This document shows, piece by piece, positions 28,200-57,370 of a DNA stretch of 64,000 bases. The translations under genes were made by a program, and so were the position numbers. The DNA is taken from contig NZ_MAOC01000021.1 in the NCBI RefSeq assembly GCF_001884135.1, positions 24,200-88,199 on the forward strand, in the 5' to 3' direction. The DNA comes from Bacillus nitratireducens. Its GTDB lineage: Bacteria; Bacillota; Bacilli; Bacillales; Bacillaceae_G. The notes under the pieces are model-generated. The model did no database searches and was not told the DNA's origin. It worked only from the letters and a program-made list of their open reading frames with translations. Numbering within the stretch: the first letter of the stretch is position 1; each line of letters starts with the position of its first letter.

Positions 28200-29093
28200 A
28201 TGAGTTTATTAACGTATACTGAGGAATTTTTTAATTATGTAAGGGAATTTTTACTTTTAAGATTTTTACTATTTGCTTTAGTTCTTATCATTATTTCTTT
28301 TGTCATAAACCGCATTATTGATTGGTTTTTTAAAAAATCAAGCTTTTTTGATGAAGAGGTAGAGCAGACGATTCAAAGTGTTATTCGATCTATTTTTAGA
28401 TATATCATTATCATCAGTCTGATCATATATTTAATTAGTCAATTTGTAGATATAAAAAGTATTATTGCAGGTGCAGGGATAGCGGGAGTCGTCATCGGTT
28501 TTGCTGCACAACAGATGCTAAAAGATGTCATATTAGGCTTCGCAAGATTAGCGGACAAAGAGTTTCGTGTTGGCGATTTTGTAACTTTTAACGGAACAAA
28601 TTCAGGAACTATTGAGGAAATTAGTATTCGTTTTATGCAAATTCGTGAATGGTCAGGGAAACTCCTTACCATACCACATGGAGAGATTAGAACGATACAG
28701 AATTTTAATAAAGGGTGGATGCGAGTTATTGAACGCATCACGGTAAGTTATCAGGAAGATCCTACAAGAGTTAAGGAATTGTTAGAAGAAGTATGTGTTA
28801 TTTGTAATGAAAAATTGGACCAAAATCTTTATAGAGTAGATGATGAAGCTGTTGAACCATTTAAATATGTTGGAGTTACAGACTTAAATCCTAACCTTAA
28901 ATATGTTGGATATGAATTTTGTATTACAGGTTTGATTAAACCGGAAGATTATTTTGAAACTTCTAGACAAGTAAGATTTGAATTAATGTCTATGTTCCAT
29001 AAAAATCAAGTGCAAATGCCAGCAGCGAATATGTTCGTTAACACTGAAAGTTTACAGCATATTCATAGAGGACAATCTTTATCAGACAGTTAA
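28200..29093 (+). CDS. Small-conductance mechanosensitive channel, MscS family
   Basis: A 297-residue channel that opens under membrane tension to release solutes in hypo-osmotic shock. Hydrophobic helices at about 17-40 and 62-82 precede the pore helix, whose Gly/Ala pattern (IIAGAGIAGVVIGFAAQQMLKDVILGF) is the MscS hallmark. The beta domain (FRVGDFVTFNG, IPHGEI) and an alpha/beta C-terminal domain follow. It belongs to the short YkuT/YhdY-like type. GGAAGTGG precedes the ATG. Single gene with a terminator. Confidence 0.92.
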   Translation: MSLLTYTEEFFNYVREFLLLRFLLFALVLIIISFVINRIIDWFFKKSSFFDEEVEQTIQSVIRSIFRYIIIISLIIYLISQFVDIKSIIAGAGIAGVVIGFAAQQMLKDVILGFARLADKEFRVGDFVTFNGTNSGTIEEISIRFMQIREWSGKLLTIPHGEIRTIQNFNKGWMRVIERITVSYQEDPTRVKELLEEVCVICNEKLDQNLYRVDDEAVEPFKYVGVTDLNPNLKYVGYEFCITGLIKPEDYFETSRQVRFELMSMFHKNQVQMPAANMFVNTESLQHIHRGQSLSDS

Positions 29094-46625: not shown

Positions 46626-46673
46626 CTTTGGTTAGAGAATATTTAATACATAAGATATTCAGGAGGGATGAAA

Positions 46674-46934
46674 ATGGGAGAAAAAGAACAGTTGTCTAGA
46701 ATAATGGAGTTAGCTAGTGATTTAAGGAAAGTACTGGTGCAAGAATCTTTTTTTAATCATCATCCTGAACTACGAGGAGTGATTGAAAATTTAGCGAGTT
46801 CTGTAGAGAATTTGGCGGAGTTGCAGCAAAATAAAGATGAAAATGCCGAAGATAGATTGCGGTACGTGCTTGCTAAAATGAAAATCGCTCATAATGCCAT
46901 TTTGCAAGAGAAAAAAGCATTTCCTTCTCATTAA
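46674..46934 (+). CDS. Small helical protein of unknown function
   Basis: An 86-residue, acidic, wholly helical protein (SRIMELASDLRKVL, VIENLASSVENLAELQ, RLRYVLAKMKIAHNAIL), with heptad-like leucines suggesting a coiled coil or helical bundle. The start is ATG 46674 because AGGAGGG ends 6 nt before it; an ATG at 46668 touches that site. It has its own terminator before the ATPase/nuclease pair. No family recognised. Confidence 0.7.
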   Translation: MGEKEQLSRIMELASDLRKVLVQESFFNHHPELRGVIENLASSVENLAELQQNKDENAEDRLRYVLAKMKIAHNAILQEKKAFPSH

Positions 46935-46951
46935 TATACGTTTTATTTTTG

Positions 46952-46979
46952 AACCTGACGGATGACGTCAGGTTTTTTA
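46952..46979 (+). terminator. Terminator after the helical protein gene
   Basis: AACCTGACG-gatga-CGTCAGGTTTTTT. Confidence 0.92.
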
Positions 46980-47040
46980 TTTCTAGTTTTAGATTGTAGT
47001 TCATACACTAAGAATAGTATGAAAAAAGAAGGTGACTACG

Positions 47041-48858
47041 TTGAAATTACATAAAGCTCTTCATCCAAGTTTTATAAAACGAATGTATTATATGAGGTTT
47101 ATTGGAACGTTTGCTAAAGCGGAGGGAGAGAAGAATGGAGAAAATTTCTTTGTACAATGCCTTTCTCCATTACCCTTAACTTTACAAGAGTTATTTCCGG
47201 CTGGAAAATATTTATTTGAAGGATTATGCAGTAATAAAAAAAATGAAAAAATCTTTACTGATTTAAAGAAGCGTAAATTAGAAAAGCAATTAGTTATGTT
47301 TCGTCTTTATTATGATCGAGGAAATTTATTTTTGGAATTAATATGTACAGAAGAGCCTAGGGAGATAGCATCTTCATATAAATTGATTCCTTCACCAAAG
47401 GTCTCGAATTATAAAAAGAGAGCGTCTTTGGAACGGAAGTTAAGCAACGGTTATTTATCATTTCTTATGCCTAAATTACCAAAAGACTTTGAGCCTCCAG
47501 AATTATTATGGTATGAAGGAAGACTATATGGGAATTTATCGTTAAAATCATCAATAAGTTCAATTTCATATTTTGAGCAAAGAAAAGAATGCAAATATAT
47601 TGAAATAAACGATTGGATGAAACATATAGAAATAGCGGTAGATGATCATTTATATTTTGTAAGTGAGAATGTGTATGAGCAACTAAATAAACGAATTGTT
47701 GAAGAAGGTAAGTTAGTTGAAGCAGAGGATATTAAAATGCAAAAGGAGGACTGGGAATGGGATGAGCGTGAATCCTCTTTTTTGCAGTATGTACAAAGTA
47801 TGGTTCGTAAAAAAGGACTATATTTGGATGATACAGATATATATAATTTTCACATTAGTGTTAAAACCAATATGTTAACGATTGTTGGTGGTATACCAGG
47901 TGTTGGTAAATCACGCTTTGTGCAAGCATATGCAGAAGCACTTGGGTTACGTTATGGTGAAGAATTAATTTGGATTCCAATTTCACCATCGTATCAAGAA
48001 CCACATGATATTCTCGGCTACCTTCATCCGAATGGTAATTTTATTGAAAGTGAAACGAAGTTAGTTCGGACATTGCTGCAGGCTAAAGAAAACCCAAATC
48101 AATTGTATATAATTGTGTTTGATGAAATGAACATGTCACATATTGAGCATTGGTTTACTCCATTTCTATCCGTTCTTCAACTTGAAAAGCAAAATCGTAT
48201 TTTGAATTTGTATGAGAAAGTACAAGAAATAGAAAATCAAATTCCGCCTTCAGTGGAAATTGGTGAGAATGTTATTTTCGTAGGCACTGTAAATTTTGAT
48301 GAAACGACGAAAGAACTTTCCGATCGATTATTAGATCGAACAAATTTGATTACGCTACAAAAAATTCCGTTTTGCGAGATGAGTATAGAACAAGAGAAAG
48401 TAGTTCAGCAACCTCCGCTGAAAGTAACAACGGGAGAATTTCGAATTAATTGGTTTAGGAATAAAGAGATGATTGAAGTGTTTACTGAAGAGGAATTAGA
48501 GTTATTGGATAAGTTACATGATGTATTATCATCACACGATACATCAAAAGGAATTTCTTTCCGATGTGCAAACGCAATCGCTACGTATTTGCAAAATATA
48601 CCGTTCCAAAATAATCAGTCCTATATGATTAGCAGGGAAGAAGGCTTTGACTTGCAAATAAAGCAACGCGTATTAACGAAATTAAGGGGGACAGAAATGA
48701 CAGTGGGCTCTCTACTTTCTGAAGAAGCAAAAAGGGGAGCGATATTGATACCACTTTTACAGTCTCCGCTTGCAAATCGTGTATCTACATTTGAACATTC
48801 TTTAGCTTATATAAGACAAAAGCGTAGAGAACTGGAGCTGTATGGATATGCAAAATGA
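47041..48858 (+). CDS. McrB-like AAA+ (GTPase-type) motor with novel N-terminal domain
   Basis: A 605-residue protein. Residues 1-240 form an unassigned, mixed basic domain with repeated aromatic beta-like segments (KRMYYMRFIGTF, ELLWYEGRLYGNL, DHLYFVSENVYEQL). The motor follows: Walker A GGIPGVGKSRF (Lys290), Walker B VFDEMNMSHIEHWF (Asp361, Glu362), and GTVNFDETTKELSDRLLDR (Asn418, Asp420), corresponding to the McrB NTAD motif and the arginine-finger region. It overlaps by 17 nt a gene for a DUF2357/PD-(D/E)XK protein, the McrB-McrC layout. Likely a restriction or DNA-processing motor. Start TTG 47041 with AGAAGGTG. Confidence 0.75.
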   Translation: MKLHKALHPSFIKRMYYMRFIGTFAKAEGEKNGENFFVQCLSPLPLTLQELFPAGKYLFEGLCSNKKNEKIFTDLKKRKLEKQLVMFRLYYDRGNLFLELICTEEPREIASSYKLIPSPKVSNYKKRASLERKLSNGYLSFLMPKLPKDFEPPELLWYEGRLYGNLSLKSSISSISYFEQRKECKYIEINDWMKHIEIAVDDHLYFVSENVYEQLNKRIVEEGKLVEAEDIKMQKEDWEWDERESSFLQYVQSMVRKKGLYLDDTDIYNFHISVKTNMLTIVGGIPGVGKSRFVQAYAEALGLRYGEELIWIPISPSYQEPHDILGYLHPNGNFIESETKLVRTLLQAKENPNQLYIIVFDEMNMSHIEHWFTPFLSVLQLEKQNRILNLYEKVQEIENQIPPSVEIGENVIFVGTVNFDETTKELSDRLLDRTNLITLQKIPFCEMSIEQEKVVQQPPLKVTTGEFRINWFRNKEMIEVFTEEELELLDKLHDVLSSHDTSKGISFRCANAIATYLQNIPFQNNQSYMISREEGFDLQIKQRVLTKLRGTEMTVGSLLSEEAKRGAILIPLLQSPLANRVSTFEHSLAYIRQKRRELELYGYAK

Positions 48859-50698
48859 GGAGCGTTATGAAACAGCAATCGTCGATACGAAAGAAACGCT
48901 CCCGTTTGTATTGAAGCTAATCATCGGTACTGAGGGGAAAGGCGATTTTATCCTTTTAAATCGCCTTTGTACGTCTACTACAGCATTAGTTCAATGTATT
49001 TATAAGGTACAGGAATTAAAACCACTGAAATTGCATTTCCATTATCAAAATCCAATGGATATTACATTCATATGGAATAAAGTATATGAGGGACAAAAGA
49101 ATATAAAAGAATCACAATATGAATTAAATGAAAAAAAACAAAGAGTATTAGTGTATGAACATGGAAAAACTGAATTTTTTTATCCGTGGCGCTGTGGCTT
49201 ATATCATTTTGAAGTGCGTATAGAAGATAAAACTTATTATGGGGCGTTTCAAGTTGTTCCTAAAAACTTTTTTGATGACCAATTTGAAATGATTCAAGAT
49301 TATGTGAAGTCAATTTTAAACGAGTTAATTTTAGATAGAGGTTATTACAAGAAAACTTTCTCAGCACTGAGCGATATTGAAGATTCTTCTTATTTGGTAT
49401 TGTTAAGAAAATTGCCACAAAAAATGAAAAGAATAAAACAAATTTTTAAGAAAGTAGAATCGAATGCGGAATTTGTACACGAATTTAATTGGGAAACGAA
49501 AGAGCGGAAGACAACGAGAAAAGCTGCCATTATGACAGAAAGAAAGCTTTATGCGAAATATTACAACCGTAAATTTAAGGAGAAAAAAAATAGTATTGAA
49601 AATGCATTCCTTAAATTTAAAACAATGCAATTCTATTATTATTTACTTGAAGCAGAAAGTTTTGTACGTAAAACGATTGAAATACTAGAAGGAGAAAAGA
49701 AGAAAAAGTCAGACGAATTTCAAGCTGTTAAAACAATTATGAAAACGATTGAACGAAATGGATCCGTCACGGACAGAGAAAAACAAAAATATAGAAATCT
49801 ACATTTACTGAAAGAAGCAGATTTACGTAAAAGTTCTGTGAAAATACAAGAATATAAAATATTAGCTCATATCGTACATGAAAGCGTGCAATACTTTCGA
49901 AATTTATTGTATTCTCCATTTTGGAGGGAAGTTTCTGAAACAGCTAACATTAATTCGCACACTTTATCTATACCACATCAACAATTACTCCATCATTTAG
50001 AATTGTTACCGCAGCAAACGGAGCAATCCCCATCTTTATTATTCGTATATAAACCAACGTTTTTAGTGTATGAGTATTACGCTTTTTTTATCGTTATTTC
50101 TATATTAGAACAAATCGGATTTGAAGATAAGAATCCTATCCGTGAACAAATACAAGAACATTTTTATTTAGACGGATTACAAGATGGAACGACAGTTATC
50201 TTGCATAGAGATAATATAAAAGTACACGTCGCATTTAATGATCTAATTGAAACACATCCCCTTATTGCACTTAGCAAAGGAAGTAATTTTTATAATGGAG
50301 AAGACACAAAGAAGCCAGATATACGTCTAGATTGTTATGTAAAGGAAGAAGAGGAGTACGTATATAAATCATCTATAATTATTGAAGTGAAATATAGCCC
50401 TATGTATAATATTTTTCAACCTATTGGTAATACGAAAGCGACGGAGCAAATGTATAAATACTGGTCTATTAAGTATGTAGAAGAACAAAGTGGAAAACGA
50501 GTTTTTCATCGTAGGGCAATTTATGAAGTGATTTGTGTATATCCAGGGAGTCATATGCATAGTAAAAAAATAGAATCTGGTTGTGGTGTGTTTTTACAAT
50601 TATATCCGTATAAGACGAAACAAGGAGAAGAGAAGTTGGCGGGAAAGCACGGGATGATTCAAATTTTTGAAAAATGGTTAAAAAGCAATAAAATGTAA
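48842..50698 (+). CDS. McrC-like DUF2357/PD-(D/E)XK nuclease subunit
   Basis: A 618-residue protein. The N-terminal 150 residues are beta-rich (VQCIYKVQELKPLKLHFHYQ, GLYHFEVRIEDKTYYGAFQV) like DUF2357. The middle is long, lysine-rich and helical (about 230-375) and should form a stalk contacting the motor. The C-terminal nuclease domain has the PD-(D/E)XK core Asp493 (KKPDIRLDCYV) and Glu515-V-Lys517 (IIIEVKYSP), followed by a Gln-x-x-x-Tyr helix (TEQMYKYWS). All three catalytic residues are kept, so it should be active. Overlaps the ATPase gene, implying coupled translation. Confidence 0.75.
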   Translation: MDMQNEERYETAIVDTKETLPFVLKLIIGTEGKGDFILLNRLCTSTTALVQCIYKVQELKPLKLHFHYQNPMDITFIWNKVYEGQKNIKESQYELNEKKQRVLVYEHGKTEFFYPWRCGLYHFEVRIEDKTYYGAFQVVPKNFFDDQFEMIQDYVKSILNELILDRGYYKKTFSALSDIEDSSYLVLLRKLPQKMKRIKQIFKKVESNAEFVHEFNWETKERKTTRKAAIMTERKLYAKYYNRKFKEKKNSIENAFLKFKTMQFYYYLLEAESFVRKTIEILEGEKKKKSDEFQAVKTIMKTIERNGSVTDREKQKYRNLHLLKEADLRKSSVKIQEYKILAHIVHESVQYFRNLLYSPFWREVSETANINSHTLSIPHQQLLHHLELLPQQTEQSPSLLFVYKPTFLVYEYYAFFIVISILEQIGFEDKNPIREQIQEHFYLDGLQDGTTVILHRDNIKVHVAFNDLIETHPLIALSKGSNFYNGEDTKKPDIRLDCYVKEEEEYVYKSSIIIEVKYSPMYNIFQPIGNTKATEQMYKYWSIKYVEEQSGKRVFHRRAIYEVICVYPGSHMHSKKIESGCGVFLQLYPYKTKQGEEKLAGKHGMIQIFEKWLKSNKM

Positions 50699-50727
50699 AA
50701 GAAATCCTTTTTATAAAGGATTTCTTT
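50697..50727 (+). terminator. Terminator after the McrBC-like pair
   Basis: AAAAGAAATCCTTT-ttat-AAAGGATTTCTTT. Confidence 0.88.
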
Positions 50728-51014: not shown

Positions 51015-51611
51015 ATGTTCCAGCGTGTTCAAACAAAGGAAGAACATTTTTGGTTCGAGCAACTGTGGGGAGATTTTTGTGAAGAAAGAAATTTAATGTT
51101 TGTAGAACGTAATTTAAATCCATCACGATTTTTATTAATAGAAGATGAACATCATATTGGTACAGTAGAATGTATTAAGTATACAGTACCTGAACAATCA
51201 AATTCGGAGTTTTTCTATCCGTTTTCTAAAAATGATTTAGTGAAAGATTTGAAAAATGTATATGAAATAGGAAAGTTAAGCATTGCGAAAACGTCTCGGG
51301 GGAGAGGACATTTCAAAAGGCTGGCAGCTATTTTATTTATGCATGCGCTAGAGACGAAAGCTGAATGGTATATTGCAGCAGTTACAAAAAGAATGTATAT
51401 GTATTTACTTACACTCGGTTTTCCAATTGAGCCGATAGATAATCCATTCCAGTTTCATGATACTTTACAAGGTGTACCAGTACGGATCCATGCTCGAAAA
51501 GGGGCTACACATTTGTATTCTTTGAAAGAATTCCGTGATATTATTCAAGGGAATGCTCATGCGCAGGCACTTATTGCAGAATACAGTAAAAATATTATGT
51601 TAACAAAATAA
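51015..51611 (+). CDS. GNAT-fold acyltransferase resembling N-acyl amino acid/autoinducer synthases
   Basis: A 198-residue protein. FLLIEDEHHIGTVECIKY, YEIGKLSIAKTSRGRGHFKRLAAILFMHALE (strand 4, acyl-CoA or acyl-ACP loop and helix) and WYIAAVTKRMYMYLLTLGFPIEPI give a GNAT-like fold of the FeeM/LuxI-related kind rather than a simple acetyltransferase. The central loop R-G-R-G-H lacks the usual Q/R-x-x-G-x-G spacing. The product could be an N-acyl amine, but that is inference. AAAGGCGGG precedes the ATG, with a perfect cre further up. Confidence 0.6.
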   Translation: MFQRVQTKEEHFWFEQLWGDFCEERNLMFVERNLNPSRFLLIEDEHHIGTVECIKYTVPEQSNSEFFYPFSKNDLVKDLKNVYEIGKLSIAKTSRGRGHFKRLAAILFMHALETKAEWYIAAVTKRMYMYLLTLGFPIEPIDNPFQFHDTLQGVPVRIHARKGATHLYSLKEFRDIIQGNAHAQALIAEYSKNIMLTK

Positions 51612-56236: not shown

Positions 56237-57370
56237 ATGGAAATGGAGGGAATGGAGGTTTTTCCAATCGATAAGGATATTAAAGAAGTATTTTGTTCGC
56301 ACTTGAAAAACAACAAGCACCAATTCGTAGAGAACTGGAAAAACAAAATGATAATTTCCGAAAAAGATCCATTTAAACAAGAAGTAGTTCAAAATGGAGA
56401 AAATTTATTAGAGTTAATTATCGAACTTGTTATGGAAGATAAAGATATTAATTATCTTCAACCATTATGTGAGAAAATTGCCATTGAGCGTGCAGGGGCA
56501 GATGCGAATATTGGAGATTTTGTCTACAATGCAAATGTGGGAAGAAATGAACTTTTTGAAGCAATGTGCGAATTGGATGTAAGCGCTCGTGAACTGAAAC
56601 CGATTATGGCCAAAATACATACTTGTTTTGACAAATTAATTTATTATACCGTTTTAAAATACTCAGAAATTATAACGAGAAATTTAGAAGAAAAACAGCA
56701 ATATATAAACGAAACACATAAAGAAAGGCTTACGATTCTAGGGCAAATGTCGGCTAGTTTTGTCCATGAATTTCGTAATCCGCTAACTTCAATTATGGGA
56801 TTTGTAAAGTTATTGAAGACAGACCATCCTAATCTATCGTATTTAGATATTATTTCACATGAATTAGATCAATTGAATTTTAGGATTTCACAATTTTTAC
56901 TTGTGTCGAAAAAAGAAATGTGGAATGAATCGGAACGTTTTTGGCTAAATGACTTGTTTCAAGATATTATACAATTCTTGTATCCAAGTTTAGTTAATGC
57001 AAATGTTTTGATTGAAAAAAATTTGCCGTATCCTATTCCACTCATTGGCTACCGAAGTGAAGTGAGACAAGTATTTTTAAATATTTTAATGAATTCAATT
57101 GATGCTCTTGAATCGGTGAAAGAAGAGCGGAAAATTATCATTGATGTATTTGAAGAGGATACCACAATTCGTATTGTTATAAAAAATAATGGACCTATGA
57201 TTCCAGCGGAAAGTGTAGAAACCATTTTTGAGCCATTTGTAACTACTAAAAAGCTAGGAACTGGTATTGGACTATTTGTATGTAAACAAATTGTAGAAAA
57301 GCATAAAGGATCCATATTGTGTCGTTCGAATAACGACTGGACAGAATTTCAAATTGAGTTTCAAAAGTAA
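56237..57370 (+). CDS. Cytoplasmic sensor histidine kinase with globin-like N-terminal domain
   Basis: A 377-residue kinase with no membrane helix. Residues 15-150 are helical and match the HisK_N/RsbR-N globin-like sensor type (HQFVENWKNKMI, LLELIIELV, IAIERAGADANIGDFVYNANVGRNELF). The HisKA domain has His177 in SFVHEFRNPLTSIMGF. HATPase motifs are VFLNILMNSIDAL, NNGPMIP and GTGIGLFVCKQIV. The layout is that of orphan sporulation kinases feeding Spo0F, and no regulator gene is adjacent. ATG 56237 with AAAGGG 10 nt upstream; later in-frame ATGs are possible. Confidence 0.85.
   Translation: MEMEGMEVFPIDKDIKEVFCSHLKNNKHQFVENWKNKMIISEKDPFKQEVVQNGENLLELIIELVMEDKDINYLQPLCEKIAIERAGADANIGDFVYNANVGRNELFEAMCELDVSARELKPIMAKIHTCFDKLIYYTVLKYSEIITRNLEEKQQYINETHKERLTILGQMSASFVHEFRNPLTSIMGFVKLLKTDHPNLSYLDIISHELDQLNFRISQFLLVSKKEMWNESERFWLNDLFQDIIQFLYPSLVNANVLIEKNLPYPIPLIGYRSEVRQVFLNILMNSIDALESVKEERKIIIDVFEEDTTIRIVIKNNGPMIPAESVETIFEPFVTTKKLGTGIGLFVCKQIVEKHKGSILCRSNNDWTEFQIEFQK

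Follow-up and report, generated by a model that had tools for sequence, protein, structure and literature searches.

What do two overlapping genes for an ATPase and a nuclease encode in Bacillus nitratireducens, and do they sit there as a travelling defence system or as a settled part of the cell? The genes lie in a 64,000-nucleotide (nt) stretch of contig NZ_MAOC01000021.1 (hereafter the window), and an original prediction took them for an McrBC-like pair, a divergent member standing alone. Rather than a stray McrBC member, the pair fits the Pseudo-Type I-B CoCoNuT described in the sections of PMC11090510 (Bell et al. 2024) on this class, which has a motor (CnuB) with an Asn-x-Asp (NxD) signature; systems of this kind are already known, and what is unusual is how settled this one is. 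We consider it likely, with a probability of about 0.7, that the pair is a resident two-gene Pseudo-Type I-B CoCoNuT in which a nucleic acid carrying a mark, most probably DNA, is fed by a ring to an intact PD-(D/E)XK nuclease (CnuC). To the published description we add presence throughout one family, shared surroundings, intact motifs, absence of the third component (CnuA), a single tree branch and a low ratio of nonsynonymous to synonymous substitution rates (dN/dS). The features concerned are:

47041..48858, plus strand: CnuB-like (McrB-like) AAA+ motor, 605 amino acids (aa), TTG start; from the listing of open reading frames (ORFs), alignment, and sequence and structure comparison
47041..47865, plus strand: motor N-terminal region, residues 1-275, homologous to its three-gene CnuB counterpart by profile match
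47890..47913, plus strand: Walker A, GIPGVGKS, with Lys290; alignment and motif check
48118..48132, plus strand: Walker B, FDEMN; alignment and motif check
48292..48303, plus strand: NxD signature NFDE, at the McrB NxxD position; alignment and motif check
48842..48858, plus strand: 17-nt overlap of the motor and nuclease genes, from the sequence
48842..50698, plus strand: CnuC-like (McrC-like) protein, 618 aa, with an N-terminal beta-rich part, long helices and a C-terminal PD-(D/E)XK nuclease
50315..50320, plus strand: P492-D493 of the nuclease core; alignment and motif check
50384..50392, plus strand: E515-V-K517 of the nuclease core; alignment and motif check

The ORF coordinates and two protein alignments confirmed the overlapping genes and every catalytic residue that had been named for them. 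The motor carries the features expected in the McrBC superfamily, namely an McrB-related AAA+ domain, Walker A and a DE-x-N Walker B. Pfam places it in AAA_5 (E 9e-7), and a PDB search with the motor sequence returned Escherichia coli McrB at E 6.4e-7, with only McrB below 1e-5; McrB also leads the structure comparison by Z, though tied. Across 32 aligned motors (A2, which leaves out near copies L046, L047, L049, L051, L053, L054, L063 and L069 as well as L043, the broken L070 and L071), K290, E362, M363, N364, N418 and D420 never vary, and D361 is kept in at least 90%. An Asn-x-Asp motif had been noted at the NTAD position, and NFDE is indeed found there, as is NxD in 20/20 resident CnuB copies, the window's included; E. 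coli McrB instead has NxxD, with one residue more, a difference that marks a separate McrB branch in the same sections of PMC11090510. A profile of the CnuB N-terminal region, built from 17 three-gene loci, matched all 20 resident motors. Its first ~50 positions are unaligned in the window motor (aligned from residue 35) and two others, and its main match to L041 and L042 is limited to the later part; neither reversed sequences nor other window proteins matched it at the printed limit.

The nuclease is harder to name, and standard libraries recognize the pair only in part. The window protein itself has no Pfam, PADLOC, NCBIfam or PHROGs match, so the DUF2357 likeness proposed earlier is undetectable in it (0 Pfam families) and emerges in its relatives, where DUF2357 was matched in 12/34, PDDEXK_7 in 13/34 and McrBC (PF10117) in 2/34. 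The window protein has nevertheless retained the core residues of this McrBC-superfamily partner. In the alignment of 34 of the 43 nucleases (A1, without the same eight near copies and the truncated L071), P492, D493 and D497 are invariant, position E515 is E or D in all rows, and K517 is present in at least 90% (R in L057).

We then asked how the pair is distributed. A tblastn search with the nuclease was negative across 50,697 phage records, and among 72,556 plasmid records it gave a single remote match. A scan of genome contigs matched three Ectobacillus species, and in the family of one of these a full-length nuclease match was present in 19/19 genomes, with an identity of 51-54% in five and 35-37% in fourteen. 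All 19 are at or below 54% identity, and the B. cereus group stands outside this count; the matches suggest that the window belongs to the same family. In an order-wide sample of 397 genomes, 53 matched, 16 of them family members, and the 37 matches among the 381 genomes outside the family include several that are only partial. The pair is thus a general feature of this family, with a patchy distribution outside it. Among viral contigs, the motor alignment yielded one relative (L079); neither the nuclease alignment nor a single motor used as query yielded any.

The family loci also share their surroundings, which we compared with the window genes over up to ~10 kb per side. On the right, the RacA gene (51712) is present in 17/19 loci; L056 has the gene at 51015 and then reaches its contig end, with no RacA visible, and L046 is a 5.3-kb contig that ends just past the nuclease and offers the left flank only. 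On the left, a small gene (46668) adjoins the motor in five loci and lies ~5 kb off in L043, and an Hsp20-like gene (18488) is nearby in thirteen. By comparison, none of the 20 loci examined from the 37 matching genomes outside the family (L059-L078) matches the genes at 51015, 51712 or 52561; the kinase at 56237 has a 36% match in L072, and other window genes are weakly matched in a few of these loci. Among the genomes examined, three-gene loci occur in varied surroundings and the two-gene form in shared ones. The pair is thus kept at one fixed chromosomal place, as if it were a settled component of the cell rather than a travelling defence system. A mobile defence island was set aside, given the shared flanks, the lack of phage matches and the single remote plasmid match. 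In the literature searched, including the sections of PMC11090510 on the class, we found no published statement of family-wide residency.

A further distinction lies directly upstream of the motor. In 24/24 other loci (L057-L078, L008 and L079) a gene of 324-456 aa precedes the motor with an overlap or a gap of at most 19 bases, and in 0/20 resident loci is a CnuA-sized gene found there, the nearest upstream ORF being 80-179 aa long and 43-732 bases away. The larger upstream genes (A3, 18 rows) agree with CnuA, the coiled-coil protein of Bell et al., and the shorter ones (324-370 aa) are candidates of similar size. A profile from A3 detected CnuA in 1/19 family genomes, G019, beside an extra three-gene copy; it missed the 324-aa gene upstream of a second system in G003 (L058), and therefore a very diverged CnuA could escape detection. 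In a CnuB tree built by a quick method, all 20 two-gene rows fall on one side of one branch (Shimodaira-Hasegawa-like approximate likelihood ratio test 95), so a single loss of CnuA suffices to explain them; they are nested among three-gene rows if the midpoint root is right. The tree holds 42 rows, without L070 and L071, and carries a long-branch warning that includes L043. Upstream ORFs, CnuA profile and tree all show a close relative of Type I-B without CnuA. Together with the presence in 19/19 genomes and the shared flanks, the single branch supports the earlier view of a compact pair outside a defence island, old and resident.

Additional CnuB-like motors occur in two family genomes (G003:C3:88149-90026, the one with the 324-aa upstream gene that the CnuA profile did not recognize, and G004:C1:2794358-2796235), and weaker or partial motor matches in G002, G005, G013, G016, G018, G019 and another G003 contig.

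The resident copies are under strong constraint. Walker A, DEMN, NxD-E, LLDR, PD and E-x-K are intact in 20/20, with no internal stop. The motor had a median dN/dS of 0.037 and the nuclease one of 0.044, both below every other gene among the 13 of the locus (next 0.058); these values come from 8/19 family genomes forming one close group, and two of the 13 genes were found in only 6/8. Unlike the resident copies, two loci outside the family are broken: the motor of L070 (5241-7290) is split into two ORFs, and L071 (8363-18281) has incomplete nuclease ORFs. In G012 (L052:10613-10948), 336 bases separate cnuB from cnuC, where the window genes overlap; parts of this stretch recur in that genome (17 matches including itself), and it folds better than all 100 shuffles (z -2.66), with no Rfam family at a useful score.

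Based on these features, we propose that CnuB would form a nucleotide-driven, probably GTP-driven, AAA+ ring whose N-terminal module recognizes marked nucleic acid. The CnuC stalk would dock in this ring, stimulate hydrolysis and bring the PD-(D/E)XK nuclease, which would cleave the substrate, most likely DNA. The family ancestor may have had three genes, with cnuA lost once and cnuBC kept in place by vertical descent. The product would be a built-in modification-dependent nuclease, serving defence or quality control.

Three results temper this reading. One PDB profile search placed UvrA first for the motor; the RhoGDI likeness of the CnuC N-terminal part is weak, with RhoGDI2 (5h1d) as the best Foldseek hit and RhoGDI in 5/10 top rows but a best E of 4e-3 and a weak model; and uniform presence, which the original prediction had named, together with a housekeeping phenotype, as counting against a restriction system, was found in the 19 family genomes. 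The last point bears on the idea that the pair is a domesticated housekeeping enzyme with no part in defence, which during stress or sporulation, for instance, processes host DNA or RNA that is damaged or modified. Its occurrence in every family genome in shared surroundings, the lowest dN/dS of the 13 local genes (8 close genomes), the lack of CnuA, and neighbours that include RacA and a sporulation-type kinase would all suit such an enzyme. However, the motor keeps its motifs and N-terminal module and the nuclease its motifs, as in the three-gene form, the neighbours are no proof, since they may simply be ordinary chromosome, and one B. cereus strain carries a frameshifted homologue (PMC4722110); we regard domestication of this kind as possible, if rather doubtful. 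Slightly less doubtful, and still tentative, is the proposal that a type IV restriction-like pair was domesticated, becoming, after one loss of the coiled-coil component, a vertically inherited core enzyme of nucleic-acid processing throughout a family of Bacillus relatives, under constraint above that of its neighbours.

The pair could also act on RNA, with the N-terminal module binding it and stress or infection being answered by RNA cleavage. RNA targeting is predicted for the CoCoNuT class in the sections of PMC11090510 devoted to it, and the N-terminal module is homologous to that of three-gene CnuB in 20/20 copies. Even so, this seems unlikely to us: general library scans, which have limited reach here, matched no RNase family in either protein, the sole nuclease seen is the intact PD-(D/E)XK domain, and the reported genetic effects involve methylated DNA (PMC4722110). 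Quite improbable is a system for overcrowding stress whose CnuA is borrowed from a Type I-B locus at another site, an idea put forward in the part of PMC11090510 on this form and in keeping with a mechanosensitive channel at 28200 in the window. That channel is 18 kb away and other genes lie left of the pair in 13/19 family genomes; because the surroundings look like shared chromosome and 18/19 family genomes have no detectable CnuA, within the reach of the profile for diverged forms, both the borrowing and the overcrowding ideas are weakened. We give hardly any credence to a MoxR or dynein-like AAA+ protein with an unrelated partner. Dyneins top the Foldseek list for the motor, with NorQ and CbbQ lower, and UvrA led the profile search noted above, but the motor sequence search and Z point to McrB and the relatives of the partner match DUF2357 and PDDEXK_7. 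A non-McrB AAA+ was set aside, and the McrBC-like core of the original prediction holds.

The TTG at 47041 fits as the motor start because its product begins MKLHKAL, aligning with MKL/MRL starts in relatives, and because AAGAAGG, which resembles a ribosome site, precedes it; an alternative GTG at 47032 would give 608 aa. Two hairpins flank the pair, both by consensus match only:

46951..46975, plus strand: terminator-like hairpin after the preceding gene
50698..50727, no strand assigned (scored on the minus strand): hairpin directly 3' of cnuC

The first suggests that cnuBC is a transcription unit separate from the preceding gene (46668-46934, 88 aa). This small gene is conserved: Ectobacillus-like genomes carry homologues of it, and it matches no family at a useful score. 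It was rejected as an operon member in view of the intervening hairpin and the missing family score, and in G019, which also has the three-gene L057, ~5 kb of other ORFs lie between its homologue and cnuB (L043:1490-6722). An Rfam scan of the window found no family reaching its gathering score.

Among known systems, the closest is the Pseudo-Type I-B CoCoNuT. The sections of PMC11090510 on the class set out an NxD branch of McrB, of which no member had been characterized at its writing, with Type I-B CoCoNuTs made of CnuA, CnuB and CnuC and a Pseudo-Type I-B form without CnuA in many Bacillus species. From neighbouring genes, a mechanosensitive channel among them, the authors suppose that the latter form acts in overcrowding stress and perhaps uses the CnuA of a Type I-B system. 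The window pair shares the NxD motor, the McrC-like nuclease partner, the lack of CnuA, Bacillus-like hosts and proximity to three-gene systems; relative to those sections we see no structural difference, and the pair here is resident in shared surroundings across a family. The window locus would accordingly be one of the Pseudo-Type I-B loci of Bell et al. Type I-B itself has homologous, overlapping CnuB and CnuC genes and differs by its CnuA. In the same source an Ig-like, RhoGDI-like CnuC N-terminal domain is stated for Types I-B and I-C, and a cold-shock oligonucleotide/oligosaccharide-binding (OB) fold, often with a YTH-like domain, for Type I-B CnuB; the Pfam families listed for 32 members (25 of 28) include neither of the latter, and the model of the motor N-terminal region is too weak to be used. 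As a settled, strongly constrained NxD form without CnuA, the pair offers a simple case for separating defence from housekeeping.

Compared to E. coli K-12 McrBC, the window pair has an McrB-related AAA+ motor and a partner whose relatives carry DUF2357 and PD-(D/E)XK, but it has NxD in place of the canonical NxxD, another N-terminal module and an extra CnuC N-terminal part. Likeness to PADLOC PDC-M26 is limited to a partial match of the motor to PDC-M26A (E 1.3e-33, best stretch 263-443 of a 724-position profile); the PADLOC scan matched no second component, and the literature searched gave no description of the system.

Locus-tag literature searches returned one relevant paper, the review PMC4722110. 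It lists B. anthracis McrB3P (BA_2283) as the type IV homologue that occurs most widely across the B. cereus group, and it reports that mutants of the type IV loci point to an activity directed at methylated DNA. The window kinase (56237-57370), a sporulation-type histidine kinase seven genes past the motor, has a sensor that matches the solved pXO2-61 protein (3pmc, E 5.5e-26). BA2291 has a pXO2-61-like sensor too, and its tag differs from that of McrB3P by eight. With the kinase resembling BA2291 in its sensor, gene order would make the window motor BA_2283 and the nuclease its neighbour; on this count (seven genes versus eight tags) McrB3P is a probable orthologue of the window motor. PMC4722110 pairs McrB3P with McrB2P as its McrC. 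We suggest a correction: McrB3P is probably partnered by an McrC of its own, encoded in an adjacent overlapping gene that Pfam, NCBIfam, PADLOC and PHROGs do not name and that would be a simpler partner than McrB2P.
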